From: an uncultured Ruminococcus sp. | GTDB lineage: Bacteria; Bacillota; Clostridia; Oscillospirales; Acutalibacteraceae | Direction of reading: 5' to 3' | DNA: 46,710 bases | Assembly: GCA_902794395.1 (NCBI GenBank) | Contig: CADBHB010000011.1 | Location: 1 to 46,710 of the forward strand | Shown here: positions 14,651 through 29,989 of the stretch, piece after piece | Layout of the letters: each line of letters starts with the position of its first letter | Numbering within the stretch: the first letter of the stretch is position 1 | Notes under the pieces: generated by a model | The model's input: the letters and a program-made list of their open reading frames with translations, nothing else | What the model was told of the DNA's origin: nothing | Database searches by the model: none | Position numbers and translations under genes: made by a program

Positions 14651-14683
14651 TAATAATGAAAAAGTATGGAAAGGAAATGCACT

Positions 14684-15601
14684 ATGAATATCGCTCAACT
14701 CCAGCAGGAAATAATCAAGCTAAAAAAAGAAAAGGACGTCTGCATCCTCGCCCACAGTTATCAGGCGCGAGAGATCTGCGAGATCGCCGACTTCACCGGC
14801 GACAGCTACAAGCTCAGCGTAGACGCCTCCAAGGTGTCGAACCGAAACATCCTGATGTGCGGCGTGCGCTTCATGGCGGAAACCTGCAAGATACTCTCCC
14901 CCGAAAAAACCGTTTTGCTCGCCCAGCCCTTTGCCGGCTGTGCCATGGCGGATCAGATGGATAAGCCGCTGATAGCCCAGGTAAAGGAGCGCTGCCCCGA
15001 CCACACCGTAGTAGCCTACATCAACACCACCGCCGCGCTCAAGACCATCTGCGACGTCTGCGTCACCAGTTCCTCGGCGGTAAAGATAGTCAACAACATC
15101 GAAAACAAGAACATCCTCTTCATCCCCGACTGCAACCTCGGCGCCTATGTCGCCGCGCAGTGCCCCGATAAAAACATCAAGCTGCTCAACGGCGGCTGTC
15201 CCATACACGCCTGCGTGACCCCCGAGGACGCGCAAAAAGCCAAGTCGCTGTATCCCGAAGCGGAGCTGCTGGTGCACCCCGAATGTGTGCCTGCGGTCTG
15301 CGAACTGGCGGACTACATCGGCTCTACCTCCGGCATAATGGACTACGCGGTAAAGTCCGACAAAAAGGAATTTATCATCGGCACCGAGATCAGCATAGCC
15401 GAGCACCTGCAATACATGTGCCCCGACAAGACCTTCCACATTCTGAGCCTAAAGCTTATTTGCCCCAACATGAAGGCCACCACCCTTGTCGACGTCTACA
15501 ACTGCCTCAACGGCACGGGCGGCGAAGAGATCGTTCTGGATGACGACACCCTCCGCGACGCCAAGCGCTGCATCGACGAGATGATACGCCTGGGTGAGTG
15601 A
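14684..15601 (+). CDS. nadA: Quinolinate synthase NadA
   Basis: 305 residues from the ATG at 14684, with AAGGAA 8 nt upstream; the in-frame ATG at 14666 sits too close to the transcription start. NadA condenses iminoaspartate with dihydroxyacetone phosphate to quinolinate using a 4Fe-4S cluster. Seen are AHSYQAREICEIADFTGDSY at the start, the cluster-cysteine context LMCGVRFMAETC, TSSSAVKIV, HPECVPAVCELAD, GSTSGIM, and the C-terminal Cys in VYNCLNG. It is the short, three-module form. nadB and nadC are not in the window, which is unusual since they commonly sit beside it. mnmA follows after 1 nt. Confidence 0.95.
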   Translation: MNIAQLQQEIIKLKKEKDVCILAHSYQAREICEIADFTGDSYKLSVDASKVSNRNILMCGVRFMAETCKILSPEKTVLLAQPFAGCAMADQMDKPLIAQVKERCPDHTVVAYINTTAALKTICDVCVTSSSAVKIVNNIENKNILFIPDCNLGAYVAAQCPDKNIKLLNGGCPIHACVTPEDAQKAKSLYPEAELLVHPECVPAVCELADYIGSTSGIMDYAVKSDKKEFIIGTEISIAEHLQYMCPDKTFHILSLKLICPNMKATTLVDVYNCLNGTGGEEIVLDDDTLRDAKRCIDEMIRLGE

Positions 15602-15602
15602 T

Positions 15603-16673
15603 ATGTCACAAAAAGCCCTGATAGCCATGAGCGGCGGTGTAGACAGCTCGGTAGCCGCCTTTTTGATGAAGGAGCGCGGCTGCGACTGCACAGGCATCAC
15701 CCTCAAGCTTTACGACAACAACGACGACGAACAGCGGGAAAAAACCTGCTGTTCGCTTGACGACATAGAGGACGCCCGCAGCGTCTGCCGCAGACTGGGC
15801 ATACCTCATTACGTATACAATTTCAAGGACAGCTTCGGCGACACAGTGATCGCCCGCTTCATCCGCGCCTACGAGGAGGGCAGAACGCCCAATCCCTGCA
15901 TCGACTGCAACCGCTTCATAAAATTTGAAAAGCTGCTGTCGCGCGCGGAAGCGCTGGGAATGGACTTTGTGGTCACGGGTCACTACGCCCGTGTGGTATA
16001 TGACGAAGCTTCGGGCAGATACCTGCTTAAAAAAGCCCTTGACCTCAGCAAGGATCAAAGCTATGTGCTCTACTCCCTCACGCAGCGGCAGCTTTCCAAA
16101 ACCGTCCTGCCCTTAGGTGAGATGACCAAGGAGGAAACGCGCGCGCTTGCCGAACGCCTCGGTCTTATCAATGCGCGCAAGCGCGACAGCCAGGACATCT
16201 GCTTTGTGCCCGACGGCGACTACGCCCGCTTTATCGAGCAGTACACGGGCAAAACCTATCCGCACGGTGACTTCGTAGACGAGAGCGGCAACGTGCTGGG
16301 CGAGCATAAGGGGATCATCCGCTACACGGTCGGGCAGCGCAAGGGTCTGGGACTGTCGCTGCCCCACCCCATGTATGTCAAGGAAAAAGACCTGGCGGAA
16401 AACAAGGTGATCCTCTGCGACAACGACGCGCTCTTTTCAAAGGAGCTGCTCGCCGACGACCTCAATCTTATTTCCGTTGAAGAACTAAAAACCCCCGTTC
16501 GCGTATACGCCAGAGTGCGCTACAATCAAAAAGAACAGCCCGCCACCGTCTACCCCGTGGACAGCGACACCATCCGCGTCGTGTTTGACGAGCCGCAGCG
16601 CGCCATTTCAAAGGGACAGGCAGTAGTGCTTTACGACGGCGACACCGTTTTGGGCGGCGCGACCATCATTTAA
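15603..16673 (+). CDS. mnmA: tRNA-specific 2-thiouridylase MnmA
   Basis: 356 residues from the ATG at 15603; GGGTGAG just upstream favours it over the GTG at 15594. MnmA makes 2-thiouridine at wobble U34 of Lys, Glu and Gln tRNAs. The PP-loop AMSGGVDSSVAAFLM is at the N-terminus. NPCIDCNRFIKFE holds the first catalytic Cys (about 102-105). TGHYARV, DQSYVLYSL and the second Cys in SQDICFVPDGDY (about 200) follow, with the C-terminal barrel GQRKGLGLS onward. It is tightly coupled to nadA; a cysteine desulfurase, the usual sulfur donor, is not nearby. Confidence 0.95.
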   Translation: MSQKALIAMSGGVDSSVAAFLMKERGCDCTGITLKLYDNNDDEQREKTCCSLDDIEDARSVCRRLGIPHYVYNFKDSFGDTVIARFIRAYEEGRTPNPCIDCNRFIKFEKLLSRAEALGMDFVVTGHYARVVYDEASGRYLLKKALDLSKDQSYVLYSLTQRQLSKTVLPLGEMTKEETRALAERLGLINARKRDSQDICFVPDGDYARFIEQYTGKTYPHGDFVDESGNVLGEHKGIIRYTVGQRKGLGLSLPHPMYVKEKDLAENKVILCDNDALFSKELLADDLNLISVEELKTPVRVYARVRYNQKEQPATVYPVDSDTIRVVFDEPQRAISKGQAVVLYDGDTVLGGATII

Positions 16674-16735: not shown

Positions 16736-18724
16736 ATGCTATGCTATCACTGCATGAAAGAGCTTAATGCCGAAAACGTCAAGTTTTGTCCCTTCTGCGG
16801 CAAGGCGCCGCATGAGCAAAACCCGCCGCATCACCTGCCCGAGGGCACCATCCTGCACGGCAAGTACATTGTGGGCAACGCCCTGGGCGAAGGCGGCTTC
16901 GGCATAACCTATGTCGGCTTGGACAACACCCTTGACCTGAAGATCGCCATAAAGGAATTTTTCCCTTCCGGCTACGCCAACCGCAACGCCACGGTATCCA
17001 AGGAAGTTTCCCTCAACTACAACAACCAAACCGAATACTTCAAGCACGGCAAGGAAAGCTTTCTGCGCGAGGCAAAAAGCATAGCCAAATTCTCCAGCGA
17101 GGACGGCATCGTAGACGTCAGGGACTACTTCACCGAAAACAGCACCGCCTACATCGTCATGGAATACCTCGACGGCGAAACCCTAAGCAGCTATACCCGC
17201 GACAAGGGCAAGCTCGACGCCGAGGAGCTGTTCCGCATGATGCTTCCCATCATGCACTCGCTTGAAAAAATGCACAACGAGAAGGTCATTCACCGTGACA
17301 TCTCTCCCGACAATATCATGTACCTAAAATCGGGCTCCCTAAAGCTGATGGACTTCGGCGCGGCGCGCTATTTCGCGGGCTCCGAGCAAAAGACTATGTC
17401 CGTCATGCTCAAGCCCGGCTTCGCGCCGTATGAGCAGTACAGCTCCAACGGCAAGCAGGGTCCCTGGACAGACGTCTACGGCATGTGCGCGACCATCTAT
17501 AAATGTATAACGGGCGTAACGCCGCCCGATTCTCTCGACCGCGCGCAGAACGACACCCTTAAAAAGCCCTCCGAGCTGGGTGTTTCAATCTCTCCCGCGC
17601 TGGAAAACGTGCTGATGTACGGACTCGCTATCTACCACGAAAACCGCTGCCAGGACATGAATGAGCTGCTCCGCATCACCGAAAAGGCGCTGCGCAAAGA
17701 AGCCGTCGCCTTCCAAAGCAACGACAGCTCCGTCAATGAAAACATCGACCGCGTTAAAGCCGCGGATGAACGCTATAAAACCATGTTTGCCGAGGACAGC
17801 TTTGAGCCCGCATCTCAAAACGCCGCGCCCCCGCAGCAGCGCCGGCAACAGCCGCAAGCTCCGCAGCAGCCTCCGCAGCAGCAGCCTCAAAACAACTGGG
17901 GCTATCCCCCCTATGTCCCGCAGCAGCCTCAGCAGCCTCAGCCGCCTCAGAAAAAGAGCAATACCGCCGTGATAATAGCAGTGATCTCCGTATCACTGGT
18001 GATACTTTTGGGCTGCGGCGCTTTTGCCTTCATGATGTTCAACAACAAAAGCGATTCCTCCGACAACGAGGAAACGACCGCCGCGTCCTTGTCGGCTGCT
18101 GTTACGGACACGACCTTGACAGTCGGCTCTACCCAAGCGTCCGCCCCCGACGCGGACAGCACCGCGATTCCGACTCCTCCGCCCGAGGTCACCACTGACT
18201 CGCCTGTTGAAACTACGACAGAGCTGCCCCCTATCACTCCTTATGTGCAGCCCACCACAGAGAAACGCGCTGTTTCCGACGCCACCTATTTCTCCTCCGC
18301 GTCTGCCAGCTCCACGCTTCCCAACCAACAAACCTACAATTACTCTCCGTCAAATGTACTGAAAAACGACAGCTCGTGCTGGTGCGAGGGCGCGTCCGGC
18401 TCGGGCGTGGGCGAATGGATCCGCCTTGATCTTCCCGAAACGCAGAACCTTTACGGAATAACCCTGTTAAACGGCTATGTCGGCACCGACGATCAGTACA
18501 ATAATAACGGAAAGATCTCAAAGGTGACCTTAGAGTTTTCCAACGGTCAGACCCTGACATGTGACCTTTCGGTTTACCCCGCAAAGCAGCGCAGCACCGT
18601 CCAGCTTATCAAATTCAATCAAGCTATCGAGACCGATTATGTAAAAATCACGATTGACGACGTTGTCGACGGACAAAAATTCGACGATACCTGTCTTACC
18701 TATGTTGCTCCGTACACCGAATAG
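16736..18724 (+). CDS. Zinc-ribbon transmembrane Ser/Thr-type kinase 1 with discoidin-like (NADase-type glycan-binding) ectodomain
   Basis: 662 residues; AGAAGGAG 7 nt before the ATG fixes the start, and the in-frame TTG at 16709 is rejected. Order: zinc ribbon (C3, C6, C18, C21), linker NPPHHL, kinase domain about 44-320, Gln/Pro-rich linker 360-408, one membrane span about 410-434, Thr-rich stalk, and a C-terminal domain 515-662. Kinase landmarks are GEGGFG (51-56), K73, E112, HRDISPDN (186-193), DFG (206-208) and APYEQY. The catalytic-loop Lys of HRDxKxxN is Ser here. The ectodomain (GEWIRLDLP, LLNGYVGTDDQYNNNGK, DDTC) matches my knowledge of the discoidin-related NADase-type glycan-binding domain. 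The catalytic side faces the cytoplasm and the sensor faces outside. First of the seven-gene cluster. Confidence 0.9.
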   Translation: MLCYHCMKELNAENVKFCPFCGKAPHEQNPPHHLPEGTILHGKYIVGNALGEGGFGITYVGLDNTLDLKIAIKEFFPSGYANRNATVSKEVSLNYNNQTEYFKHGKESFLREAKSIAKFSSEDGIVDVRDYFTENSTAYIVMEYLDGETLSSYTRDKGKLDAEELFRMMLPIMHSLEKMHNEKVIHRDISPDNIMYLKSGSLKLMDFGAARYFAGSEQKTMSVMLKPGFAPYEQYSSNGKQGPWTDVYGMCATIYKCITGVTPPDSLDRAQNDTLKKPSELGVSISPALENVLMYGLAIYHENRCQDMNELLRITEKALRKEAVAFQSNDSSVNENIDRVKAADERYKTMFAEDSFEPASQNAAPPQQRRQQPQAPQQPPQQQPQNNWGYPPYVPQQPQQPQPPQKKSNTAVIIAVISVSLVILLGCGAFAFMMFNNKSDSSDNEETTAASLSAAVTDTTLTVGSTQASAPDADSTAIPTPPPEVTTDSPVETTTELPPITPYVQPTTEKRAVSDATYFSSASASSTLPNQQTYNYSPSNVLKNDSSCWCEGASGSGVGEWIRLDLPETQNLYGITLLNGYVGTDDQYNNNGKISKVTLEFSNGQTLTCDLSVYPAKQRSTVQLIKFNQAIETDYVKITIDDVVDGQKFDDTCLTYVAPYTE

Positions 18725-18741
18725 CAGGGAGGTCGATTCAA

Positions 18742-19647
18742 GTGCCAAAGAAAAAAGCGATACAAAAAGCATTTCTTATCCTCTTGTTGATGATCTCGGT
18801 GCTTTGCGCCTGCACGTCTAAGCAAAGCGAGCCGACCGCTTCTTCCGCGGCGGCAACCACCGCGCCGGCGACCTCAGCGGACTCAACGTCAGAAGCTGCG
18901 GCAGCGCCGACGACCTCGACCGACGCCCCCGCGAGCAGCGTTCCGCTCTCCGCCACCGTTGAAGAATACACTTCTCCTTCGACCGCGGTGTCCGTCGACT
19001 CGGCGCAGTCCGACCCCAATGACATCTATGACAGCACGGGCTTTGTATCTGTCAGCGAGGTCATCCCGGATGTCATTCTTGAAATACGTTACTACTCCAC
19101 CTATAATTTCATCGGCGACCGTATCAACGGATACGAAGAGCCCGTGGCGCTGCTGACAAAGGAAGCGGCAACGGCTTTGTCGGGCGCCGCGGATGAACTG
19201 CGCGAAAAAGGCTACCGACTGAAAATATTCGACGCCTACCGCCCGCAAGTCGCCGTTGAGCACTTTGTAAGCTGGGCGTCCGACCTGAGCGACACCCGCA
19301 TGAAGCCGTATTTTTACCCCGAGGTGGACAAAAGCCAGCTGTTCAACTACGGCTACATAGCCCAATACTCGGGACACAGCCGCGGCTGTACACTCGACCT
19401 CACCCTCTTTGACATGAACACCGGCAAAGAAGTGGATATGGGCGGTCCGTTCGACTACTTCGGCACGCTCTCTCACCCCGATTACACAGGGATCACCGAC
19501 GAACAGTATCAAAACCGTATGCTGCTGCGCGAAGCTATGACAAATAACGGCTTCCGCCCCTGCGGCACGGAATGGTGGGATTTTACTCTTATCAACGAGC
19601 CCTATCCCGCCACCTACTTCTCCTTCCCCGTCAAAAGCCTCTCCTGA
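18742..19647 (+). CDS. VanX-like D-alanyl-D-alanine dipeptidase, lipoprotein (M15D)
   Basis: 301 residues. The GTG start is supported by GGGAGGT 8 nt upstream. The signal peptide ends in the lipobox LCAC (C24), and a Ser/Thr/Ala stalk runs to about 95. The VanX domain shows DAYRP (R167 region), the zinc motif SGHSRGCTLDLTLFD (H212, D219) and a C-terminal TEWWDFTL with the catalytic Glu E277. In VanX the third zinc ligand is the His of EWWH; here the aligned residue is D280. VanX enzymes hydrolyse D-Ala-D-Ala, but resistance VanX is cytoplasmic and sits with vanH/vanA, both absent. This secreted form more likely trims wall or muropeptide material. It lies 17 nt after kinase 1 and 30 nt before kinase 2. 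Confidence 0.87.
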   Translation: MPKKKAIQKAFLILLLMISVLCACTSKQSEPTASSAAATTAPATSADSTSEAAAAPTTSTDAPASSVPLSATVEEYTSPSTAVSVDSAQSDPNDIYDSTGFVSVSEVIPDVILEIRYYSTYNFIGDRINGYEEPVALLTKEAATALSGAADELREKGYRLKIFDAYRPQVAVEHFVSWASDLSDTRMKPYFYPEVDKSQLFNYGYIAQYSGHSRGCTLDLTLFDMNTGKEVDMGGPFDYFGTLSHPDYTGITDEQYQNRMLLREAMTNNGFRPCGTEWWDFTLINEPYPATYFSFPVKSLS

Positions 19648-19677
19648 CGACCGACCCGCTGCTTAAAGGAGCTTTCT

Positions 19678-21969
19678 ATGCGCTGTTTTCACTGTATGAA
19701 AGGACTGAAGAACGAAGCAAGGTTTTGCCCCTTTTGCGGCAAAAAGCCCTGCGAAGCCAACCCGCCTCACCATTTGAAGGCGGGCACGGTGCTGCACGGG
19801 CGTTACCTGATAGGCAACGCGATAGGCGAGGGCGGCTTTGGCATCACCTATGTCGGACTTGACCAAACGCTGAGGCTGAAAGTCGCGGTCAAGGAGTATT
19901 TCCCCTCGGGTTACGCCAACCGCAGTCACAGCGTTTCAAACGACGTGACCCTAAACTACACAAACAAAGCTGATTTTTACCGCCACGGCAAAGAGAACTT
20001 TTTGCGCGAGGCGCGAAATATCGCCGCCTTTTCAAAGGAGCACGGCATTGTTGACGTGCGCGACTTTTTCGAGGAAAACAACACCGCCTACATCGTGATG
20101 GAATTTCTTGACGGCGATACCCTAGGCAAATATGTCCGCGAAAACGGCGCGTTTTCGGCGGAAAAGCTCATTCAACTTATGCTGCCGCTGATGCGGGCGC
20201 TCGAGAGAATGCACGCTCAAAACGTCATCCACCGCGACATAGCGCCCGACAACATCATGCTGCTCGACGACGGCAGCCTTAAGCTCACCGACTTCGGCGC
20301 GGCGCGGTATTTTTCGGGCGAGGAGAGCCAAAGCCTCTCGGTCGTACTAAAGCCGGGCTACGCGCCCTATGAACAGTACAGCCGGGAGGGACATCAGGGG
20401 CCGTGGTCGGATGTCTACGCCCTCTGCGCCACTATCTACCAATGCATTACGGGCGTAACTCCGCCCGATTCCATCGACCGCAGCATGGGAAAGCCCTTAA
20501 AAGCTCCCTCTTCTCTGGGCGTCGCCATCTCGCCGACACTGGAGGCTGCTCTGTTGAAAGGTCTGGCGCTGCTGCCCAAAGACCGCTGGCAAAGCATGGG
20601 CGAGCTGCAAACCGCCGTCAAAGCCGCGCTGTCAGCAAAAGCTGCGGCGACAAACACAACGCCTGTAAATCCCGAGCGGCACGCTGCCGCTGACATCGAC
20701 AAAACCCAAGACGCCAACGCGGGCACCGTCAACTTTATTCTTGTCGATATGAACAAGACCCAAAAGGCGGACGACGCTTACGACAGCTCCTCCGAAACCC
20801 CGAACTGGCGCCGCGTTGCCCAAAGCGACAAAAGCGACCGCGAACACAAGGCAGCGCCGCCTGAGAAAATGGCTGATTCCTCATCATCCGGCGATACAGG
20901 CGGTCAACATACATCCGGAACGCAAAAGAAATCATCCTTTGACATCGGACTGTTTTTCAAGCGCGCCTTTATCCTGCTGGCGGGATTTGCCGTTTTTGTG
21001 CCCATTTACATGAATGTCAAAGGCTGCCTCTTCAAAAAGAAAACATATTCCGTTGCGCAATTTGACGCCGCCGCCAAAGCAGCAGGCACCTTCGCCTGCG
21101 ACGAAAAAGCCTTTTATTGCATTGACGACTCCGGCACGGCGCACCGCTACGCGCTCGACTTCAACAAGGGCACTGTAAAAGATGACACCGCACAATTGCG
21201 CGACAATACCAACCTCATCAAGCTGTCAATGGACAACCTCTCCGATGATGTGTTCGGCATCACCTCAGACCACCGCGCCGTATATATTTACGGCAATACA
21301 TACGCTGCCTACACAAGCGAGATCTCCGCGTGGACAGGTATACAGGACATCACAAGCTACGATAACCACATCATCGGCTTGAAAACCAACGGTACTGCCG
21401 TCACGGCGGGCACAAACGAAAACGAAGGCATGACGCCGCTGGCTGTTGACGGATGGACAGATTTGAAAAGCATAAAAACAGGTTTATCTACCTTTGGATT
21501 AAAAAAGAACGGAACTGTTGTGACGACAGAATCCGACATACAATTATCCGATATTGCCGCCCTGCCCACAGGAAACGATGACGTTGATTATTTCCTCAAA
21601 AAAGACGGCACGTTAGTTGACATATACGGCAAACAGGCAGGTAAAAATACCTCGGACGCCGTCTATGCTTCTATCAAGGACTGGAAAGATTTGGTGTCTG
21701 TCAGTGTAAGCCAACATTGGGAAGCAAACGGCGAATCCTTTAGCTATTCCACCGCCTACATCGGTCTTAAAAAGAACGGCATCGTTGTCGCGGCAGGCGC
21801 TAACCGTTACGGTGAATGCAACGTGGCGAAATGGACGGATATACAAGCTGTCATCACCAACGGATATTACACTGTCGGCAAAAAGAAAGACGGCACCTAT
21901 GTGATAGCCACCGATAACCACAAACTCGAGGAAGCGTTCGGCAACGCCGTCAACGGCAACAGATTATAA
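19678..21969 (+). CDS. Zinc-ribbon transmembrane Ser/Thr-type kinase 2 with RCC1-like ectodomain
   Basis: 763 residues, RBS AAAGGAG. Zinc ribbon C3, C6, C17, C20; kinase domain about 43-320 with GEGGFG (50-55), K72, E111, HRDIAPDN (185-192; Ala where HRDxK has Lys) and DFG (205-207). A disordered Asp/Ser/Lys-rich linker (330-420), a membrane span about 426-445, then an ectodomain to the end. This shows repeated units of the type GLKTNGTAVTAGTN..GW.DL, resembling RCC1/alpha-tubulin-suppressor-like propeller repeats as found in Clostridia. The final unit has GLKKNGIVVAAGANRYGECN. The propeller probably binds an extracellular ligand. Very similar to kinase 3 downstream, consistent with tandem duplication. 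Confidence 0.9.
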   Translation: MRCFHCMKGLKNEARFCPFCGKKPCEANPPHHLKAGTVLHGRYLIGNAIGEGGFGITYVGLDQTLRLKVAVKEYFPSGYANRSHSVSNDVTLNYTNKADFYRHGKENFLREARNIAAFSKEHGIVDVRDFFEENNTAYIVMEFLDGDTLGKYVRENGAFSAEKLIQLMLPLMRALERMHAQNVIHRDIAPDNIMLLDDGSLKLTDFGAARYFSGEESQSLSVVLKPGYAPYEQYSREGHQGPWSDVYALCATIYQCITGVTPPDSIDRSMGKPLKAPSSLGVAISPTLEAALLKGLALLPKDRWQSMGELQTAVKAALSAKAAATNTTPVNPERHAAADIDKTQDANAGTVNFILVDMNKTQKADDAYDSSSETPNWRRVAQSDKSDREHKAAPPEKMADSSSSGDTGGQHTSGTQKKSSFDIGLFFKRAFILLAGFAVFVPIYMNVKGCLFKKKTYSVAQFDAAAKAAGTFACDEKAFYCIDDSGTAHRYALDFNKGTVKDDTAQLRDNTNLIKLSMDNLSDDVFGITSDHRAVYIYGNTYAAYTSEISAWTGIQDITSYDNHIIGLKTNGTAVTAGTNENEGMTPLAVDGWTDLKSIKTGLSTFGLKKNGTVVTTESDIQLSDIAALPTGNDDVDYFLKKDGTLVDIYGKQAGKNTSDAVYASIKDWKDLVSVSVSQHWEANGESFSYSTAYIGLKKNGIVVAAGANRYGECNVAKWTDIQAVITNGYYTVGKKKDGTYVIATDNHKLEEAFGNAVNGNRL

Positions 21970-21978
21970 GGAGCAACT

Positions 21979-24471
21979 ATGCGCTGTTACCACTGTATGA
22001 CACAACTGAATGTCAAAACGAACCGCTGCCCTGTGTGCGGCAAGCCGCCGTTTGAGGAAAACCCGCCCCATCACCTGAGGGCGGGCACCATCCTCTGCGG
22101 AAAATTCCTCATCGGCAACGCGCTGGGCGAGGGCGGCTTCGGCATCACCTATGTCGGCTATGACAGGACGCTGCGTCTTAAGGTCGCCATCAAGGAGTTT
22201 TTCCCGACAGGCTTTGCCAACCGCAACAACAACGTATCAAACGAGATCTCGCTCAACTACACCAAGCAGGGCGAGTACTTCAAAAACGGCAAAGAAAACT
22301 TTATGCGCGAGGCTCAGAGCATCGCGAAGTTCTCCAGCGAACGCGGCATTGTGGACGTGCGCGAGTACTTCACCGAAAACAACACCGCCTACATAGTGAT
22401 GGAATACCTCGACGGCATCGCGCTAAGCACATACATCACCGAGCGCAGCATTTTCTCAGCCGAAAAAATCGTCGCGCTGCTGCTGCCCGTGATGCAGTCG
22501 CTTGAAAAAATGCACGCGGCGGGCATAATCCACCGCGACATCTCACCCGACAACATTATCTATCAGCGCAACGGCAGCCTAAAGCTCACCGACTTCGGCT
22601 CCGCGCGCTACTTCTCCACCGACGAAAAAACCAAATCGCTCTCGGTGGTGCTCAAGCCGGGCTACGCGCCCTATGAACAATACGGACGCAAAAGCGGCCA
22701 GGGCCCGTGGACGGACGTCTACGCCCTCTGCGCCACTATATATAAATGTATAACGGGCATAACACCGCTTGACGCCTTCTCACGCAATCAAAAGGACGAG
22801 CTGCAGCCGCCCTCGGCGGCGGGCGCTAAGCTTTCCCCCGAAATGGAAGCAGTGATCATGCGCGGGCTTGAGGTACAGCCCGACAAGCGCTATCAAACCG
22901 TGGGCGAGCTTATCGTTGACGCGCAGGCAGCGCTGGCATCAAGCGACCATCCGCATACCATCGTGTTTCACAATAAAAATGAAAGAGCGGACGACTCCTC
23001 GGTAACAGTGGTCGCCGAGGGCTCGGGCGACCCGCCTCTGCCGCCGGCTCCGCCCGAGGAAAAGAACCTAACCTACGGCGACAGCAAGGATTTTCTGAAA
23101 ATACTCTCGGAAGAAAAACGGATGGAACGCCTCAGGGCTCCGCTGCCGTCCTCCGAGTATCCGCCTCAGGCCAAATCGCCGCTCGGCGCGCCGCCCGAGA
23201 AAAAAATCAAAGGCAGCAACACGCGCGCCATCCTAAAGGCGATAATCGCCACTCTTTCCCTGCTGCTGGCGGTGATAATCGCGGCGCAGGTAATAACCGT
23301 ATTCCAGCAAAGGTCATCCTCTAAAAAAGAAAAGAGCTCTCAGACCTCGGCGCCGAGCGAAACGAACTACACCGCCGAGATACGCGCCGCCGCGGCAAGC
23401 GCGAAGACCCTGGCCTGCTCCAAGGGCGAATTTATCCTGCTGGGCAATAACGGAAAAGCGGAATACTACAACATCTATCTCTACAGCCTTTCGGGCACCA
23501 GGATAAGCCGCGAAACCGACACGCTGATAAACAACGAGCGCCTTGTTTCCGTAAGCGGCAACTCACGCATAGGCTACTACGGTCTGCGCGACGACGGCAA
23601 GGTGGTCACCATAAAAAAGGTAGTTGAAACCCAGGGCAACCGCTTTGTATACGCGGAAAAATTCGGCGCTGAAATAGTCGGCTGGAAAAACATAACCTCC
23701 ATCACCTCCGGCACCGATTTCCTCGCCGCCCTCAAAGAGGACGGCACCGTAGTCACCGCGGGCGAAGCGCCCGACGTTTCGGGCTGGAGCGACATTATCG
23801 ACATAGCCGCCGGCGGCACCACTCTGGCGGGGCTGTCCAAGGAAGGGGTAGTACGCTACACCGACACCGAGATGGGCTGGTACTCCGTAGCCGCCATCTG
23901 CGACGACAACAACTCCTTCTGCGTCAAGTCAGACGGCACGCTCGCACGCGACTCCTCCGACACCCGCTATGTCGAGGCGGACAACTGGAGCAACATCCTC
24001 AGCGTGACGGAAAGCGACGGCAACCTCATCGCGCTTACACGCGACCGCACCGCCGTGGCTATAGGCAGCAACGAAAACGGTCAGTGCGACGTAGGCGACT
24101 GGACAGAGCTTTCCGCTGTAAAAACCACCCCCGAATACACCATAGGCAAAAAGACCGACGGCACCTACGTCATAGCCTGCAGCGACGCCGACCTGTCCGC
24201 AAGCTTCAACGAGGTAGTCAACGGCGTCACTCCGTCCTCTACCGCCGCGTCAGCGCGCACCTTCCGCGTAAAGTTCCTCAACTACGACGGCTCGCTGCTG
24301 GAGGAACAGCAGGTTGAGGAGGGCAAGGCGGCGCGCGCGCCGGCAACACCCAACCGACCCGAGGACAAATACTACCGCTACCGCTTTACGGGCTGGAGCC
24401 AGAATTTCAGCCGCGTGACTTCCGACATGATAATCGTCCCTGTTTTTGAACCTGTATCCAAATCGGAATAA
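21979..24471 (+). CDS. Zinc-ribbon transmembrane Ser/Thr-type kinase 3 with RCC1-like repeats and C-terminal InlB-type repeat
   Basis: 830 residues; the ATG is 9 nt after kinase 2's stop, with RBS AAGGAG overlapping that stop region. Zinc ribbon C3, C6, C17, C20, then a kinase domain with GEGGFG, IKEFF (Lys71-72), HRDISPDN and DFG. A charged, Pro-rich linker spans about 325-412 and a membrane span about 418-437. The ectodomain has RCC1-like units (ALKEDGTVVTAGE, GLSKEGVVR, ALTRDRTAVAIGSNENGQCDV). The last 65 residues (FLNYDGSLLEEQQVEEG...YRFTGWS) match the InlB B-repeat/List_Bact family of secreted repeat domains. It is the longest ectodomain of the set. HRDxK Lys is again Ser. Confidence 0.9.
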   Translation: MRCYHCMTQLNVKTNRCPVCGKPPFEENPPHHLRAGTILCGKFLIGNALGEGGFGITYVGYDRTLRLKVAIKEFFPTGFANRNNNVSNEISLNYTKQGEYFKNGKENFMREAQSIAKFSSERGIVDVREYFTENNTAYIVMEYLDGIALSTYITERSIFSAEKIVALLLPVMQSLEKMHAAGIIHRDISPDNIIYQRNGSLKLTDFGSARYFSTDEKTKSLSVVLKPGYAPYEQYGRKSGQGPWTDVYALCATIYKCITGITPLDAFSRNQKDELQPPSAAGAKLSPEMEAVIMRGLEVQPDKRYQTVGELIVDAQAALASSDHPHTIVFHNKNERADDSSVTVVAEGSGDPPLPPAPPEEKNLTYGDSKDFLKILSEEKRMERLRAPLPSSEYPPQAKSPLGAPPEKKIKGSNTRAILKAIIATLSLLLAVIIAAQVITVFQQRSSSKKEKSSQTSAPSETNYTAEIRAAAASAKTLACSKGEFILLGNNGKAEYYNIYLYSLSGTRISRETDTLINNERLVSVSGNSRIGYYGLRDDGKVVTIKKVVETQGNRFVYAEKFGAEIVGWKNITSITSGTDFLAALKEDGTVVTAGEAPDVSGWSDIIDIAAGGTTLAGLSKEGVVRYTDTEMGWYSVAAICDDNNSFCVKSDGTLARDSSDTRYVEADNWSNILSVTESDGNLIALTRDRTAVAIGSNENGQCDVGDWTELSAVKTTPEYTIGKKTDGTYVIACSDADLSASFNEVVNGVTPSSTAASARTFRVKFLNYDGSLLEEQQVEEGKAARAPATPNRPEDKYYRYRFTGWSQNFSRVTSDMIIVPVFEPVSKSE

Positions 24472-24483
24472 GGAGGTAAAGAT

Positions 24484-25239
24484 ATGTACTGTTATCACTG
24501 TAAGCGAGAGATAATTGCGCAGGCGAAGTTCTGCCCATACTGCGGCAGCGATCTCACCGCGCCGCCTGCTCAAAAAGCCCCGGAAGCTCCCGAGCCGCGT
24601 TTTCGGGACGCCCTGCAAGCACAGGTACCCATCCCCGACCGGCAAGCGCCCGTTTCGCAGCCTCAAAAAGCTTTTGAGCGCAAGGCGCCGCGCCTTTGGA
24701 TACCCATAGTCATCCTCTCCTGCCTTGTTATAATAGCGGGCGGCATTTTGGCTGCGGTTTTTCTTATCCCGCACAACGGCGAAAAGACGCCGGCATCATC
24801 CACATCCAAAGCCGCTTCCACCGCATCAACACAGCGCGGCGCCCTTAAGGACAACGCCAAGCTGTTCTCAGCCGAGCAAACCGAGCAGCTGCAGCAGCAG
24901 CTCGACACCGCTTCGGCTCAGACGGGCTGGCAGTTCATAATCCACACCTCAGAGGACAATGTGGCAAGCGAGGACATGCAGACAACGTATGACAATTACT
25001 TCGCCTCACATCCCTTTGCCTTCGATTCCATCATGCTGGTTATTGACAACGCCTCAAATAACCGCATCATCCTTTCCTACGGAGATGTCCCCGATTATTT
25101 CAATGACGGCGGCGAACGCTACAACGCTATCATCGACGCCATGAGACCCTCGCTCTCGTCCGGCGATCTGTTCCGCGCGAGCGAGATCTTCATTGAAAAA
25201 GCCTCTGCCGTACACGACATGGGCAAACCGAAGCAATAA
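24484..25239 (+). CDS. Zinc-ribbon membrane protein with extracellular TPM domain (kinase-less)
   Basis: 251 residues, RBS AGGAGG. Zinc ribbon CYHC/CPYC (C3, C6, C17, C20) is followed by a Pro/Ala-rich cytoplasmic linker (25-70), a membrane span about 71-95, a short Thr/Ser stalk and a TPM domain at about 118-245. The TPM region (LKDNAKLFSAEQTEQLQQQL, TGWQFIIHTSEDN, IMLVIDNASNNRIILSYG) is closely related to that of kinase 4. The protein is kinase 4 without the kinase. TPM domains occur in extracytoplasmic proteins, including a plant thylakoid phosphatase and bacterial membrane proteins; activity here is unproven. Possibly an adaptor or dominant-negative partner of the kinases. Confidence 0.85.
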   Translation: MYCYHCKREIIAQAKFCPYCGSDLTAPPAQKAPEAPEPRFRDALQAQVPIPDRQAPVSQPQKAFERKAPRLWIPIVILSCLVIIAGGILAAVFLIPHNGEKTPASSTSKAASTASTQRGALKDNAKLFSAEQTEQLQQQLDTASAQTGWQFIIHTSEDNVASEDMQTTYDNYFASHPFAFDSIMLVIDNASNNRIILSYGDVPDYFNDGGERYNAIIDAMRPSLSSGDLFRASEIFIEKASAVHDMGKPKQ

Positions 25240-25263
25240 TATTACCAATGAACGGAGCTGTTT

Positions 25264-25641
25264 ATGCGCTGTAACCGCTGTCAAAAAGAACTTAAAACCG
25301 AAGCGAACTTCTGTCCCTACTGCGGAGAAGACCTGCGTGACCTCGACCGCACCCTTGCCGCCGAGGATGTTCCTGCCGCCTATCCGCCGCCCGACAGATA
25401 CCCCTCTCCTCTGCCCTATGACGAAGCGGAGGAAGAAATTTCCGATGACGAGGTATATGAGCGCTCCGCCGAGAAAAAAGCCTTCCTCATTATAGAGTCC
25501 GTTTTGATAACTCTCGGCGTGATTTTGATACTCGCCATTCTGTTTGTGCTGGGACGCGACTATTTGTTCCCGGGCAACGACACCGCCGAAACATCGGCTT
25601 CCGCCGTCATCCACGCCGTTTTTTCCCACCTGACGCCGTAA
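25264..25641 (+). CDS. Small zinc-ribbon single-pass membrane protein
   Basis: 125 residues; the ATG at 25264 has GGAG only a few nt upstream. Zinc ribbon CNRC/CPYC (C3, C6, C17, C20) and an acidic, Pro-rich cytoplasmic linker (24-72) precede a membrane span about 75-97 (AFLIIESVLITLGVILIL) and a 27-residue extracellular tail. No kinase or sensor domain remains. It has the same N-terminus as its neighbours, so it is a reduced member of the same family, either a kinase remnant still translated or a small regulator. Its linker is rich in Glu/Asp/Tyr and has few Ser/Thr. Confidence 0.8.
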   Translation: MRCNRCQKELKTEANFCPYCGEDLRDLDRTLAAEDVPAAYPPPDRYPSPLPYDEAEEEISDDEVYERSAEKKAFLIIESVLITLGVILILAILFVLGRDYLFPGNDTAETSASAVIHAVFSHLTP

Positions 25642-25672
25642 AGCTACACCTACTGTCAAAGGAGCCCCTTCC

Positions 25673-27379
25673 ATGCGCTGTTACCGCTGTATGAGAGAAC
25701 TGAAGCAAAAGGCGAAGTTTTGCCCCTACTGCGGCAAAAAAACGCTTAAAAGCAACCCGCTTCACCAGTTGAAGGCGGGTACGGTTCTGCATCACAAATA
25801 TCTCATAGGCAACGCCATAGGCGAGGGCGGCTTCGGCATAACCTATGTAGGCTTTGACCAAACCCTCGACCTCAAGGTCGCCGTCAAGGAGTATTTTCCC
25901 TCCGGCTGCGCCAACCGCAACAACGCCATGTCAAACGACGTGACCCTAAACTACACCGGAAAAAACGATTATTTCATCCACGGCAAGGAAAGCTTTCTGT
26001 GCGAAGCCAAAAGCATCGCCAAGTTCTCGCAGGAGCGCGGTATAGTCAATGTGCGCGATTACTTCACCGAAAACAACACTGCCTACATCGTCATGGAGTT
26101 TCTGGACGGCGTCGATTTGGGCAGCTATGTGCGCGCGCACGGAGCGTTTGAGCCGAACGCGCTGTTTCGGCTTCTGCTTCCGCTTATGCGCTCGCTGCAA
26201 AAGATGCACGCTGCGGGGGTCATCCACCGCGACATCTCACCCGAAAACATAATGTTCGTCAACGGCGAAAGCCTGACGCTCACCGACTTCGGCGCGGCGC
26301 GCTACTTCTCCACCGAAGAAAAAAGCAAATCGCTCTCGGTGGTGCTCAAGCCGGGCTACGCGCCCTATGAACAATACACCCGCAAGGGGCGCCAGGGACC
26401 GTGGACAGACGTTTACGCGCTCTGCGCCACCGCCTATTACTGCATAACAGGCGTAACGCCGCCCGACTCTCTGGGAAGGAACTTTGAGGACGACCTCAAA
26501 AAGCCCTCCGAGCTGGGCGTGAACATAACTCCGCGGCTGGAAAGCGTGCTGCTGTCGGGGCTAAGGCTGCGCAGGCAGGAACGTCTGCAAAACATGGACG
26601 AGCTTATCGCGGCAGCAAAGGCGGCGCTCTCGGCTGAGGGCGACTCAGAGCCAATTCCCCATCCCGCCGAACCACCCCTGACCCTTGAGGAGGAAAACCT
26701 GACCCGCGTCGCAGACGACACCGCCGCTCTCACCCGATTTCAGATACAGGGCAGCATACCGACCTACGGCGAAAGCGATCTATACCGCAGCGAGCCCACT
26801 GAGCCGCGCCACGCCAAAAAGCGGCGCGGCGGCAAAAAGCTGACTCTGCTTATCATGGTTTTCTCAATCATCCTTTTGGTGCTGGGCGCTATAGCCATTT
26901 CGGTAGCTGTTTCACAGCGAAAGGCAGCCGCACCAAAAAGCGGCGCGCTGAAGGACGACGCGCTGGTATTCACCGCAGCGCAGTCCACCGAGCTGCGGCA
27001 AAAGCTTGATGAGGCAAGCCGTGAAACCGACTGGCAATTAATTATCCACACCTCAAAGGACGGCGTCACTGCCGACAACGCGGCGGAGCATTACAACAAC
27101 TACTACGCCGACCGCGACTTTGCCGACGACGCCATTATGCTCGCCATCGACAACACCTCCGGCGAACACGTCATCCTGTCCTACGGCACAGCCATGAGGT
27201 ACTTTCAAAACGGAAGCGAAAACTACCAAACCCTCATTTCCGCCGTCAAGCCGTATCTGGATAACGGCGAGATATACGAGGCGTCCAAGGTATTTATAGA
27301 CCGGGTAGTCGCCATACATCAGGCGGGAGAGCCGACCACCGCGGAGTCATCCGTACAAAGTGTCCCGACAGCCGTCTAA
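25673..27379 (+). CDS. Zinc-ribbon transmembrane Ser/Thr-type kinase 4 with TPM ectodomain
   Basis: 568 residues, RBS AAAGGAG. Zinc ribbon CYRC/CPYC (C3, C6, C17, C20). The kinase domain (about 43-320) has GEGGFG, VKEYF, HRDISPEN and DFG; the HRDxK Lys is Ser as in the other copies. A Glu/Pro/Thr-rich linker leads to a membrane span about 389-411 and a TPM domain about 420-555 (LKDDALVFTAAQSTEL, WQLIIHTSKDG, IMLAIDNTSGEHVILSYG). The linker to span region is very basic (KKRRGGKK), consistent with the cytoplasmic side. It is the last gene of the cluster; the terminator stem begins inside its final codons. Confidence 0.9.
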   Translation: MRCYRCMRELKQKAKFCPYCGKKTLKSNPLHQLKAGTVLHHKYLIGNAIGEGGFGITYVGFDQTLDLKVAVKEYFPSGCANRNNAMSNDVTLNYTGKNDYFIHGKESFLCEAKSIAKFSQERGIVNVRDYFTENNTAYIVMEFLDGVDLGSYVRAHGAFEPNALFRLLLPLMRSLQKMHAAGVIHRDISPENIMFVNGESLTLTDFGAARYFSTEEKSKSLSVVLKPGYAPYEQYTRKGRQGPWTDVYALCATAYYCITGVTPPDSLGRNFEDDLKKPSELGVNITPRLESVLLSGLRLRRQERLQNMDELIAAAKAALSAEGDSEPIPHPAEPPLTLEEENLTRVADDTAALTRFQIQGSIPTYGESDLYRSEPTEPRHAKKRRGGKKLTLLIMVFSIILLVLGAIAISVAVSQRKAAAPKSGALKDDALVFTAAQSTELRQKLDEASRETDWQLIIHTSKDGVTADNAAEHYNNYYADRDFADDAIMLAIDNTSGEHVILSYGTAMRYFQNGSENYQTLISAVKPYLDNGEIYEASKVFIDRVVAIHQAGEPTTAESSVQSVPTAV

Positions 27380-27404
27380 GCCTCGGCTGTCGGGATATGT
27401 TTTT
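27364..27404 (+). terminator. Strong intrinsic terminator closing the kinase cluster
   Basis: A perfect 11-bp stem CCCGACAGCCG (27364-27374) with CGGCTGTCGGG (27384-27394) is followed by ATATGTTTTT. The left arm encodes the last residues of kinase 4 and the stop codon lies in the loop. Confidence 0.9.
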
Positions 27405-27489
27405 GCGAAAACGCCCTGTTTATCCCGTATATAGGAAACTTTTCCATAAACAAAAGAGCTAAGGTAAAAAGATTGTTACATAATAGAGA

Positions 27490-27519
27490 TTGACAGGATG
27501 CGACAAAATCCGCTATAAT
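27490..27519 (+). promoter_or_regulatory. Promoter for the L,D-transpeptidase gene
   Basis: Consensus TTGACA (27490-27495), 18-bp spacer, TATAAT (27514-27519). A second TATAAT lies at 27531-27536 without a clear -35. Confidence 0.88.
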
Positions 27520-27567: not shown

Positions 27568-28974
27568 ATGAATCGGAGTAGAATGACTGTATCCATTCTG
27601 GTCGGTATCGCGGCGATCATTCTCGCCATTTCGGTAGTCAGCTTTTCCGCTGCCAACGAAAAACCGCCCACCGCGCCTTCCGCGCCGCAAACATCCGTGC
27701 CTGACAATACAAATTCACACCACATCCCGATGCCGGGTACGATAACCGGTGTAAAGAAAACCAGCAGCGAGGCAAACCTGATCTCTTTGAGCTGGTCGCC
27801 CTACGGCGGCGCCACAGGCTACTATGTATATATCTGCGAGCCGGCGGTTTCCGATAACTACGTTCTGATCTCCACTGTCACTCAGCCCAAGGCTGAACTG
27901 ATGAACCTCAAGGACACCACGGCTTACAAAATAAAGATCTCCGCTTTCAAAAACAGCAACGGTGCAATTTGCGAAAGCACTCCCGCCGTGTTATCCACCG
28001 CCACACAGGCGGCGGACGTCGCCTCGATCGACAGCCTCAGCTCGTCTTCGGTGCTGAAATTCTGCTGGCCCAGAACCGACGGCGCTGTCGGCTACGACAT
28101 CTACCGTGCCGACGAGCAGAGCAACACCAAGTACTCCATATACAAAAGCCTTGACAGCTCCACCACCTCGTTCGAGGACAAAAACGTAAAAGAGGGCAAC
28201 TTTTACAGCTACAAGGTATGCCCCTATCATATCGTAGACGACGTCAAGTACTCCGCCAAGGGCAAAGCCATCGACTTCATCAGCGGACTGGACGCACCCG
28301 AGGATCTGGTCGCCCGCAGCGGCAAAAACCACATCACCCTTCACTGGGCTGAGCAGGACATAGCGTCCGGCTACGACATCTACATCTCAAACTCCGAAAA
28401 CAGCGGCTTCAAGCTGCTCGGCTCCACCGACGAGAACTCCTTCTCTGCCGAAATGCCGGAAAAGGGCAAAACCTATTACTTCCGTGTTCAGCCCTTCAAG
28501 ATTCTTGAAAACAAATCGAAGGCTCACGGCAACTGGAGCCCCTGCAGCGTAAAGGCGTCCGATCCCTCGGACAAAAGCGACGGTTCTCCCAAGAGCAGCA
28601 TAAGCGGCAAGGGCACCTATATCGAAATAAGCATTGAGCAGCAGCATATGTGGTTCTATGAAAACGGCAAGCTGCTCCTCGAAACCGACGTAGTAACGGG
28701 CAACAATAACAGCTCCGACACCCCCACAGGCAACTACGGCATACAATCCCGCGCGAGAGATACCACCCTCACCGGTGAGGGATACTCCTCCTTCGTCAAC
28801 TACTGGATGGGCTTCTCAGGCGGCTACGGCATCCACGACGCGAGCTGGCGTTCCAGCTTCGGCGGCGAGATATACAAGGGCAACGGCTCACACGGCTGTG
28901 TAAACACCCCCTACGAAAAGGTCAAGATAATTTACGAGCACACCGACTACGGCACGCCCGTATACATATACTGA
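27568..28974 (+). CDS. L,D-transpeptidase (YkuD) with fibronectin type III-like repeats
   Basis: 468 residues, ideal RBS AAGGAG. An uncleaved-looking N-terminal anchor (about 8-29) and a short Pro/Ser stalk precede three FnIII-like modules (about 58-148, 150-238, 241-335, each with a W-x-x-x-x-G-A-x-G-Y pattern such as LSWSPYGGATGYYVY). A YkuD domain follows (about 345-468). The catalytic motif is GSHGCVNTP (Cys near 443) with the preceding YGIHDASW His. These enzymes make 3-3 cross-links in peptidoglycan or attach proteins to it, and are insensitive to most penicillins. It sits just after the kinase cluster with its own promoter, making it a candidate output of that signalling. Confidence 0.92.
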   Translation: MNRSRMTVSILVGIAAIILAISVVSFSAANEKPPTAPSAPQTSVPDNTNSHHIPMPGTITGVKKTSSEANLISLSWSPYGGATGYYVYICEPAVSDNYVLISTVTQPKAELMNLKDTTAYKIKISAFKNSNGAICESTPAVLSTATQAADVASIDSLSSSSVLKFCWPRTDGAVGYDIYRADEQSNTKYSIYKSLDSSTTSFEDKNVKEGNFYSYKVCPYHIVDDVKYSAKGKAIDFISGLDAPEDLVARSGKNHITLHWAEQDIASGYDIYISNSENSGFKLLGSTDENSFSAEMPEKGKTYYFRVQPFKILENKSKAHGNWSPCSVKASDPSDKSDGSPKSSISGKGTYIEISIEQQHMWFYENGKLLLETDVVTGNNNSSDTPTGNYGIQSRARDTTLTGEGYSSFVNYWMGFSGGYGIHDASWRSSFGGEIYKGNGSHGCVNTPYEKVKIIYEHTDYGTPVYIY

Positions 28975-29185: not shown

Positions 29186-29989
29186 TTATTTATAACGTTT
29201 GCCGTTTTTCGGGGTTTTGGTTTTCTTCTTTCCGGCGTCGAAATCATCGTCATAGTCGTCGTTTGAACGATAGCGGTATGACGACGCGCCGGAAGCGCCG
29301 TGAGAAGCGGATCTTCCGCCCTGATTTGCCGCCGCGACCTGCTTTCTTCTGGACACCGTAGAAACTATCAGGTAGATAAAGCCCACCAAGCTAAGCAGCA
29401 CCAGCGCGAATCCGAGGATCAGCAGCTTTTGACCGTTGTTCTCGGTGCCGGTATCCCGCTTGATTGAGGAGAAGCTGTCGCTGTCCGAACCGCTCGATTT
29501 ACCCTGACTGCTTACGTCTGCCTTAATGGCTTCCCAATCACTGTCGGTCAGCGTAGGCGAATCGACCTTGCTGTTTGAAGTGTCGTAATGCCCTGCCGTG
29601 GTATCGGGAATACTTGCAGGCGGATCATATGTCTGCTCGCCGCCGACATAAACGTCCGAGGGGTTGGAGTACTGATTACCGTTGTCGTCGTAGTAAACTA
29701 TGTTGTTGTCGCTCGGCTCTACATAGCTGGGCTCATCATAGCTTGGCTCTACATAGCTCGGCTCAACATAGCTGGGCTCGACATAGCTCGGCTCTACATA
29801 GCTCGGCTCTACATAGCTGGGTTCTTCGTAGCTGGGTTCGACATAGCTGGGCTCAACATAGCTGGGCTCAACATAGCTGGGCTCATCATAGCTCGGCTCT
29901 ACATCCTCCGCAAAAACCGGGAGAACAGCCGCGGAAAGCAAACAGATCGCCGAAATGATCGCTGTGATAATCCTTGAATGTTTATTCAT
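29186..29989 (-). CDS. Exported membrane protein with tandem EPSYV repeats
   Basis: 267 residues. Signal peptide to about residue 27 (VFA|ED), then 12 tandem EPSY[V/D/E] pentapeptides (31-90) ending in EPSD, and an Asn/Asp/Ser-rich segment. A stretch at about 145-160 (LTDSDWEAIKADVSS) is followed by a membrane span about 189-212. The cytoplasmic tail is basic, Gly/Ser-rich and Lys-rich. The span is followed by RRK but there is no LPxTG. The repeat region should be extended and surface exposed. GGAAGG precedes the ATG. It lies 73 nt after the prsA-like gene. Function unknown; the wall-spanning stalk interpretation is inference. Confidence 0.82.
   Translation of the reverse strand: MNKHSRIITAIISAICLLSAAVLPVFAEDVEPSYDEPSYVEPSYVEPSYVEPSYEEPSYVEPSYVEPSYVEPSYVEPSYVEPSYDEPSYVEPSDNNIVYYDDNGNQYSNPSDVYVGGEQTYDPPASIPDTTAGHYDTSNSKVDSPTLTDSDWEAIKADVSSQGKSSGSDSDSFSSIKRDTGTENNGQKLLILGFALVLLSLVGFIYLIVSTVSRRKQVAAANQGGRSASHGASGASSYRYRSNDDYDDDFDAGKKKTKTPKNGKRYK
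29708..29899 (-). repeat. 15-bp tandem repeat (minisatellite) encoding EPSYV
   Basis: Twelve full 15-bp units plus a partial one, in frame, with unit consensus GAGCCCAGCTATGTC on the coding strand and scattered synonymous changes. Length change by slippage would keep the frame. Confidence 0.92.

Follow-up and report, generated by a model that had tools for sequence, protein, structure and literature searches.

Several described systems join a Ser/Thr kinase to a domain outside the cell. The PASTA kinases (PrkC/Stk1/PknB) are single-pass Hanks kinases with a cytoplasmic kinase and an extracellular domain, and PknF of Mycobacterium tuberculosis is associated with Rv1747, a double-FHA ATP-binding cassette (ABC) exporter. 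Plant receptor kinases occur in tandem clusters, and the plant receptor-like kinases, CRINKLY4/ACR4 among them, carry diverse ectodomains that include an RCC1/BLIP-II-like propeller. In PknD of M. tuberculosis, an extracellular beta-propeller sits on a transmembrane kinase, as described in one account (PMC6213207). Here, we analyze an array of seven plus-strand open reading frames (ORFs) at positions 16736-27379 of a 46,710-nucleotide stretch of DNA from an uncultured Ruminococcus sp. (GenBank assembly GCA_902794395.1, contig CADBHB010000011.1, here C11; the whole stretch is called the window). The array is made up of four zinc-ribbon (ZR) transmembrane kinases, two kinase-less ZR membrane proteins, and one exported M15 peptidase. 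The kinases are named by gene order (k1, k3, k4, and k7), and the NADase-type discoidin ectodomain of k1 is called DISC. Receptor Ser/Thr kinases as a kind are known, but in the open-licence literature, by titles and abstract openings, we found no description of ZR-kinase arrays or their kin, of an M15/discoidin pair, or of a recombining locus with a constant ectodomain-enzyme cassette and an optional kinase.

We posit a recombining receptor locus, of which this cluster would be one form, and we lean toward this explanation as a whole. The evidence for it includes the linkage of the DISC ectodomain to the M15 gene, the fusion-like structure of k1, the kinase tree, and the shared chromosomal address of related loci.

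A conserved ectodomain-enzyme pair

The first gene, k1 (16736..18724), encodes a ZR, a Hanks-type kinase, a transmembrane segment, and the DISC ectodomain, which matches the NADase_transloc/F5-F8 discoidin family at 102 bits against a Pfam cut-off of 27. Next to it lies a predicted exported, VanX-like M15 peptidase lipoprotein (18742..19647) that scores 135.6 bits for Peptidase M15 (PF01427; gathering score, 27). The preliminary description of this DNA called the product a wall-directed dipeptidase; an exported M15 peptidase with a lipobox-like signal stands, and the protein reaches 195.9 bits against the 320 set for the VanX equivalog NF033115. It aligns end to end with VanX (1r44; E, 8e-45) and keeps the HSRG...D and YRP stretches, while EWWHY is changed to EWWDF; the DISC-linked copies of other genomes include both EWWDF and EWWHF.

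A DISC profile gives 28 matches in 26 of the 161 genomes of the genus, and an exported M15 gene lies directly downstream of 21 of these 28 genes. One further gene (G085) is cut, its contig ending about 180 nt after the gene, and six weaker matches are taken up below. M15 therefore follows all of the strong, assessable DISC genes (21/21). The converse also holds: the long M15 genes, 21 matches whose alignments start no later than query residue 49, all come after a DISC gene, and none of the 53 other M15 rows stands beside a DISC match by coordinates (five of the 53 were also read, and none has DISC). The chassis beneath the 21 M15-linked DISC proteins is far less constant, with a kinase in 7, a ZR without a kinase in 10, and no detected ZR in 4 (one of which, from G152, is cut at its 5' end). 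DISC and M15 co-diverge beyond species relatedness: their distances correlate at r = 0.71 over 20 pairs, with a partial r of 0.67 given MnmA distance (P = 0.0002; G079, which has no MnmA match, was left out). Distance correlations within the kinase-bearing members alone were discarded, since that set took in G122, whose apparent kinase match covers 46 residues of ZR. The kinase/no-kinase state changes at least four times on the DISC tree and at least five times on the M15 tree, with several branches weakly supported. Based on the linkage of the strong matches, the presence of a kinase in only a third of the pairs, and the co-divergence, the DISC ectodomain and M15 gene form, as far as sequences can tell, a conserved unit in which the kinase is optional. 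The idea that the ectodomain is the variable part thus needs qualifying: the array is modular and its ectodomains differ, but for DISC, the one pair tested genus-wide, the ectodomain and its neighbor are constant, and it is the kinase that comes and goes.

An apparent fusion in the stalk and the kinase tree

k1 itself appears to have arisen from two genes that are separate in the array of a relative, fused within the stalk close to the membrane. Residues 1-441 align at 63% identity with a kinase of genome G124 that bears a PASTA plus YkuD-like ectodomain, and residues 498-659 align at 52% with a kinase-less ZR-DISC protein of the same genome; these two alignments place the switch point in the stalk after the transmembrane segment. 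Weaker matches also tie the ribbon, linker, and transmembrane segment of the G124 ZR-DISC protein to k1. In G124, the order is a kinase with RCC1, the kinase with PASTA plus YkuD-like domain, a YkuD-like partner, the kinase-less ZR-PASTA-DISC protein, M15, a small ZR protein, and an fn3-YkuD gene. A deletion in an array of this kind would give the k1-M15 order, which is how we infer that k1 arose.

The four kinases are predicted Hanks-type transmembrane Ser/Thr kinases. Their Pkinase scores are 99 to 123 bits, above the Pfam cut-off of 31.7; the catalytic Lys, HRD, and DFG are intact in k1, k3, k4, and k7 and invariant in 7/7 aligned kinases; and the N-terminal ZR, which scores under the Pfam cut-offs, has four Cys residues invariant in the same 7/7. 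Hydropathy gives one transmembrane segment after the kinase in k1 (as L007), k3, k4, and k7, that of k3 being the weakest (2.05). The kinase halves had been described as near-identical, but they share only 61 to 69% identity with each other. The array kinases are, as expected of one system, closer to k1 than the three genome paralogues compared (48 to 55% identical to k1).

In a 65-row kinase tree, all four array kinases fall in one 18-row clade (100/99), but only k3 and k7 are sisters (88/83). The nearest neighbors of the other two are in other species: k1 is sister to the PASTA plus YkuD-like kinase of G124 (locus L037, the same locus as that of G124; 99/94), and the sister of k4 is a kinase of G052 whose ectodomain is of the same class as that of k4 (100/99). 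Five DISC kinases on the tree require at least four changes, and forcing them together is rejected (p-AU [approximately unbiased test], 4e-74, for a group named after the tree was seen). Over the whole tree, with 10 rows that lack an ectodomain class left out, the class changes at least 20 times, against a minimum possible of 13 for 14 classes; for the most part, then, an ectodomain descends together with its kinase, and exchanges have repeatedly been added to this pattern. The nearest named record to the k1 kinase half, at 73% identity, is from a metagenome-assembled genome (MAG), uncultured Ruminococcus sp. RUG12253 (L037). Many further named relatives are Ruminococcus or Clostridiales MAGs, several of them ruminant-derived by title.

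One address, variable content

Upstream of the array lie nadA (quinolinate synthase; 14666..15601, plus strand) and mnmA (tRNA thiouridylase; 15594..16673, plus strand), the latter ending 62 nt before k1; nadA is named from its protein sequence. Homologues of nadA stand directly 5' of mnmA in relatives, and mnmA was searched in the 161 genomes. We read the DNA downstream of mnmA in 19 genomes, a nonrandom set picked mainly for an mnmA close to that of the window. ZR kinases follow mnmA in 10 of the 19 (G000, G052, G107, G098, G122, G124, G147, G106, G105, and G043, the last as a contig-end fragment), and partner or ZR genes without a visible kinase follow it in 4 (G006, G103, G125, and G149, whose contig ends there). 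Only a small gene of about 220 aa is present in 3 (G013, G153, and G024), and no kinase, partner, ZR, or small gene is present in 2 (G108 and G099). The small gene also closes several arrays, its G122 copy being without a Pfam match. In G122, the order is a kinase-less ZR-DISC gene, M15, a YkuD-like partner, a kinase, a ZR signal-peptidase-like protein, and the small gene. An fn3-YkuD gene is on the same contig in 12/19, on the opposite strand in G106, G125, and G147. As read from these contigs, the array has a fixed address downstream of nadA-mnmA, often before fn3-YkuD, and relatives vary its content down to none.

At the same address in G098 (L193 3371-5510), a k1-like kinase is split into two ORFs, one for the kinase and one for the ectodomain.

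The remaining genes of the array

The other kinases are k3 (19678..21969), k4 (21979..24471), and k7 (25673..27379). Both k3 and k4 match RCC1_2 (27.0 and 28.7 bits, respectively; cut-off, 22), and their ectodomains are related at 36% identity. A model of the k4 ectodomain built from five sequences (pLDDT, 78.6; pTM, 0.72) finds BLIP-II at the top of a Foldseek search (E, 5e-12; TM score by target of about 0.6), followed by RCC1-type proteins, with ACR4 at rank 9; a profile search with k3 included agrees (E, 1e-7). RCC1/BLIP-II-like propellers are accordingly what the model of k4 and the profile of k3 predict, although the superposition scores are moderate, and no blade number is claimed for k4 for that reason. 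The k4 product also carries a Flg_new-type repeat, which the preliminary description called InlB-type; it is weak by itself (E, 0.063; 13.8 bits against a cut-off of 27), but homologous segments recur in relatives.

k7 ends in a TPM ectodomain (38.4 bits; cut-off, 22.1) that is 46% identical to the TPM ectodomain of gene 5 (24484..25239), a kinase-less ZR transmembrane protein. In this TPM pair, as in the YkuD-like pair described below, a kinase-less membrane protein bears the same type of outer domain as a kinase. Between gene 5 and k7 lies the second kinase-less protein, a small ZR transmembrane protein of 125 aa (25264..25641). It was considered as a conserved third component and dropped: the 125-aa ZR protein before fn3-YkuD in G124 is weakly similar (27%; E, 0.004).

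Most of the layout first reported for this locus holds. All seven ORFs are on the plus strand, with gaps of 17, 30, 9, 12, 24, and 31 nt in order; the four kinases have differing outer halves by Pfam (DISC, RCC1_2, RCC1_2, and TPM); both kinase-less ZR membrane proteins are there; a single terminator-like GC hairpin and T-run, for which a shorter stem is also listed, overlaps the end of k7 (27363..27406, plus strand); and PF13672 (PP2C_2) gives no match on C11. The cell-surface theme, the relatedness of the kinase halves, and the modular arrangement are likewise upheld by sequence. The boundaries were right as well, but the locus is better read together with nadA-mnmA upstream and, downstream, the fn3-YkuD L,D-transpeptidase gene (27568..28974, plus strand), which has its own promoter-like site at 27490-27519 (a 12/12 sigma-70-like match at 27490). 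Just past the locus, the minus strand at 29186-29989 encodes a protein that looks secreted and contains EPSYVEPSYV repeats; G052 has a similar repeat protein close to its own locus (L122 1345-2196).

A looser pair and a widespread architecture

A second ectodomain also tends to keep a neighbor. Among 12 YkuD-like ectodomain genes, 10 have a YkuD-like partner as the next real gene (eight within 20 nt and two about 335 nt away), and the receptor domain and the partner match each other's profiles. As a strict pair, however, this was rejected: the partner occurs at the mnmA locus without such a receptor in G006, G103, G147, G106, G149, and G125, and in G106 and G147 no partner comes after the YkuD-like gene. 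The linkage is therefore looser than that of DISC and M15, and the YkuD label for both proteins is itself tentative.

Neither the architecture nor the tandem layout is unique to this array. Both recur widely in Clostridia. A ZR kinase (E <= 1e-85) is present in 55/161 genomes of the genus and in 21/81 of the high-quality ones. In an order-level sample, it is present in 17/147 genomes and 11/88 genera, and 10 of these 17 genomes (G000 included) have two or more within 5 kb. In loci of named relatives (the best 80 of 574), as many as five kinases stand side by side, although some of these runs are truncated where a contig ends, and for 167 distinct active kinases, another such kinase lies within 200 nt on the same strand on 78/334 flanking sides. 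The ectodomains on this chassis include PASTA, SH3, discoidin, RCC1, LRR, C-type lectin, MORN, TPM, YARHG, solute-binding, Bmp, beta-lactamase2, and DUF5050 domains, and 29 of 168 are without a class. One locus (L105 3-10399) holds three kinases with MORN-repeat ectodomains, the ZR being seen in two and the third being cut; the MORN repeat is usually met inside cells. In three others (L121 5807-10435, L099 9992-14672, and L114 1315-6023), a ZR kinase is followed by a ZR pseudokinase with six PASTA domains.

The host genome (2.2 Mb) has 12 PF00069 matches. Outside the array are two ZR kinases on contig C18, a ZR kinase with a solute-binding ectodomain on C5 whose ORF overlaps a PP2C gene, an RCC1 kinase split between C28 and C15, and, on C8, a PASTA kinase beside PP2C together with a ZR pseudokinase that lacks HRD and has two PASTA domains. 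Judged by score and frame length, about 53 of 60 genus genomes have a single copy of this pseudokinase (G000:C8:99215-100171; L003 4538-6178, minus strand), and all 11 copies examined have two PASTA domains and no HRD; it may be the core member of the family. The split RCC1 kinase, broken by a contig end (C28:21239-21693 plus C15:1-5038; L004 and L005), stands before an FHA-FtsW/RodA gene and a penicillin-binding transpeptidase gene. These C15 neighbors and the BLIP-II fold match prompted the idea that the RCC1 ectodomain pairs with a penicillin-binding protein, which was dropped because the related RCC1 kinase of L055 has neither an FHA-FtsW/RodA nor a penicillin-binding protein gene as a neighbor.

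Candidate outputs

PF13672 has three matches in the host genome, on C5, C7, and C8. The stretch read on C7 contains FHA-ABC, ABC2, and PP2C genes and no kinase; its FHA-ABC protein (L187 5414-6958) combines two FHA stretches with ABC_tran. Relatives of k1 (60 to 69% identical) in G064, G111, and G046 lie within an operon made up of FHA-ABC, ABC2, PP2C, kinase, and partner. Among 185 distinct kinases, 72 have a PP2C gene within 9 kb on the same strand, 26 to 28 have an FHA-ABC gene (two seeds), and 27 have a vWA-FHA gene; these are raw counts from loci of unequal length that were fetched for their kinases. FHA-ABC is found in 37/161 genomes, and 36 of the 37 are among the 55 with an active ZR kinase, G139 being the exception (Fisher P = 8e-21, phylogeny ignored). 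On C5 (G000:C5; L002 3831-7222), the PP2C gene overlaps the ORF start of the ZR kinase with the solute-binding-protein ectodomain, which suggests coupled translation.

A proposed mechanism and its alternatives

In total, these observations are consistent with a mechanism in which each receptor has an outer domain that a flexible stalk and a single transmembrane helix connect to an inner chassis (ZR plus Ser/Thr kinase, ZR alone, or neither). Certain outer domains form cassettes with a neighboring exported gene: DISC with the M15 lipoprotein and, more loosely, PASTA plus YkuD-like domain with the YkuD-like membrane partner. The sequences themselves show this architecture, the address, the DISC-M15 linkage, the exchange of chassis, and the association with FHA-ABC and PP2C genes, whereas the route of recombination and the ligands, activation, targets, and physiological output proposed here are inferred. 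Recombination in the stalk would move the same cassette onto different chassis, so that a surface cue that feeds into phosphorylation in one species could be one that is simply anchored in another. We speculate that each outer domain recognizes a ligand in the wall or at the cell surface, most likely one that the partner enzyme produces or uncovers, and that clustering of receptors activates the kinase. Phosphorylated targets would then be read by FHA domains, above all those of the double-FHA, Rv1747-like ABC exporter, and PP2C would reset the system. In its fullest form, the proposal is a combinatorial receptor locus in which heritable two-gene cassettes of ectodomain and exported enzyme recombine between kinase-bearing and kinase-less ZR chassis, partly at one address, giving a species-specific wiring into a shared kinase/PP2C/FHA-ABC circuit, with the kinase-less copies serving as co-receptors or non-signaling forms; this specific version we offer tentatively, as a possibility somewhat short of probable.

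A number of points weigh against this proposal. Six weaker DISC genes (80 to 130 bits) lack M15, with G140 too near a contig end to tell; of their products, two are ZR proteins without a kinase, and four are ZR proteins of 454 to 496 aa with weak kinase-profile scores (132 to 157 bits). In an uncultured Clostridia MAG (L089), the gene after a DISC kinase is PP2C and not M15. On the MnmA tree, too, the kinase/no-kinase state has only four changes, and some of the variation in chassis may thus reflect the descent of the species. The activity of the window M15, a predicted peptidase, is uncertain because Asp stands where VanX has the His of EWWHY, which we take to be a zinc ligand. The YkuD-like partners match Pfam YkuD below its cut-off (18.4 and 17.9 bits against 23.4), and the receptor ectodomain of L037 has no YkuD match at E <= 0.01. 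The RCC1 and TPM ectodomains are without a demonstrated partner rule and would count as cassettes by analogy. At the cut-off applied, FHA-ABC is missing from 19 of the 55 kinase-bearing genomes. Neither a PP2C nor an FHA gene is present in the array, and any action on the C7 operon would therefore be in trans. Lastly, the sequences come mostly from MAGs, which have gaps and contamination of as much as 8%.

Could the DISC-M15 and YkuD-like pairs simply be ordinary wall-modifying complexes, in which the ZR and transmembrane segment are a mere anchor and kinase fusions are occasional? The locus would then encode wall enzymes with local kinase control and no sensor array. The absence of a detected kinase from 14/21 DISC-M15 pairs, the frequency of PASTA and SH3 among the ectodomains, and the fn3-YkuD gene at the border all fit such a picture, but the same chassis elsewhere carries RCC1, LRR, C-type lectin, MORN, solute-binding, and Bmp ectodomains, which suits the detection of diverse signals; the catalytic residues of the window kinases are intact, and PP2C and FHA genes are found close to many relatives. 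On balance, we consider it unlikely. A plainer history of tandem duplication, with the four kinases copied locally not long ago and their ectodomains drifting apart without meaningful shuffling, would account for the k3/k7 sister pair, the related k3 and k4 ectodomains, the double occurrence of TPM, and the broad conservation of ectodomain class along the kinase tree. It is hard to reconcile with the grouping of k1 and k4 with kinases of other species, the repeated changes required by DISC, and the switch point in the stalk of k1; the kinase tree, the AU test, and the k1 alignments speak against it as the main story, and we give it very little credence even in part.

The strong differences in content between species at one address, and the resemblance of some ectodomains to binding folds, including BLIP-II, also bring to mind a self/non-self or phage-adsorption locus, in which phages or competitors would select for diversity among the surface receptors. 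Here, too, we see small probability: no phage, toxin, or immunity family is among the above-cut-off Pfam matches of the array genes (the PADLOC library was not searched), and the evidence of variation is between species, with none within species.

Comparison with known systems

How does this locus stand beside the systems outlined at the start? A sharp contrast with the PASTA kinases had been drawn, but it softens because relatives in the same ZR kinase clade carry PASTA. The window kinases nonetheless differ in having an N-terminal ZR, no PASTA match at E <= 1, and scores of 159 to 181 bits against the cut-off of 450 for the PASTA kinase equivalog NF033483; moreover, the host has its separate PASTA kinase on C8. 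The operons of the k1 relatives and the C7 operon of the host recall PknF-Rv1747 in their double-FHA ABC ATPase. They depart from it in that the ABC membrane part is a separate gene and PP2C is in the operon, that the kinase has a ZR and an exchangeable ectodomain, and that, in the host, the array and FHA-ABC are on different contigs. As in PknD, an extracellular beta-propeller would sit on a transmembrane kinase, but the propeller predicted here is RCC1/BLIP-II-like. The window M15 resembles VanX-type D-Ala-D-Ala dipeptidases over its whole length and differs as an exported lipoprotein that falls below the equivalog cut-off and has EWWDF for EWWHY.

To our knowledge, the ligands of bacterial Ser/Thr receptor kinases are mostly unknown, and the search becomes narrower when a receptor domain stays with one partner gene on different chassis and in different species: DISC together with an M15 peptidase would point to a cue that contains D-Ala or is linked to peptidoglycan. 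Because this cassette occurs both with a kinase and without one, it offers a natural experiment on what the kinase contributes, and the retained FHA-ABC/PP2C operon is a candidate output. With CRINKLY4/ACR4, the analogy is one of logic only; no orthology is claimed, and the chassis here is a bacterial ZR chassis with the kinase at its N-terminal side. In that sense, the locus suggests a sensor repertoire of gut bacteria that evolves by recombination at the membrane-proximal stalk, with a logic comparable to that of plant receptor-kinase clusters.

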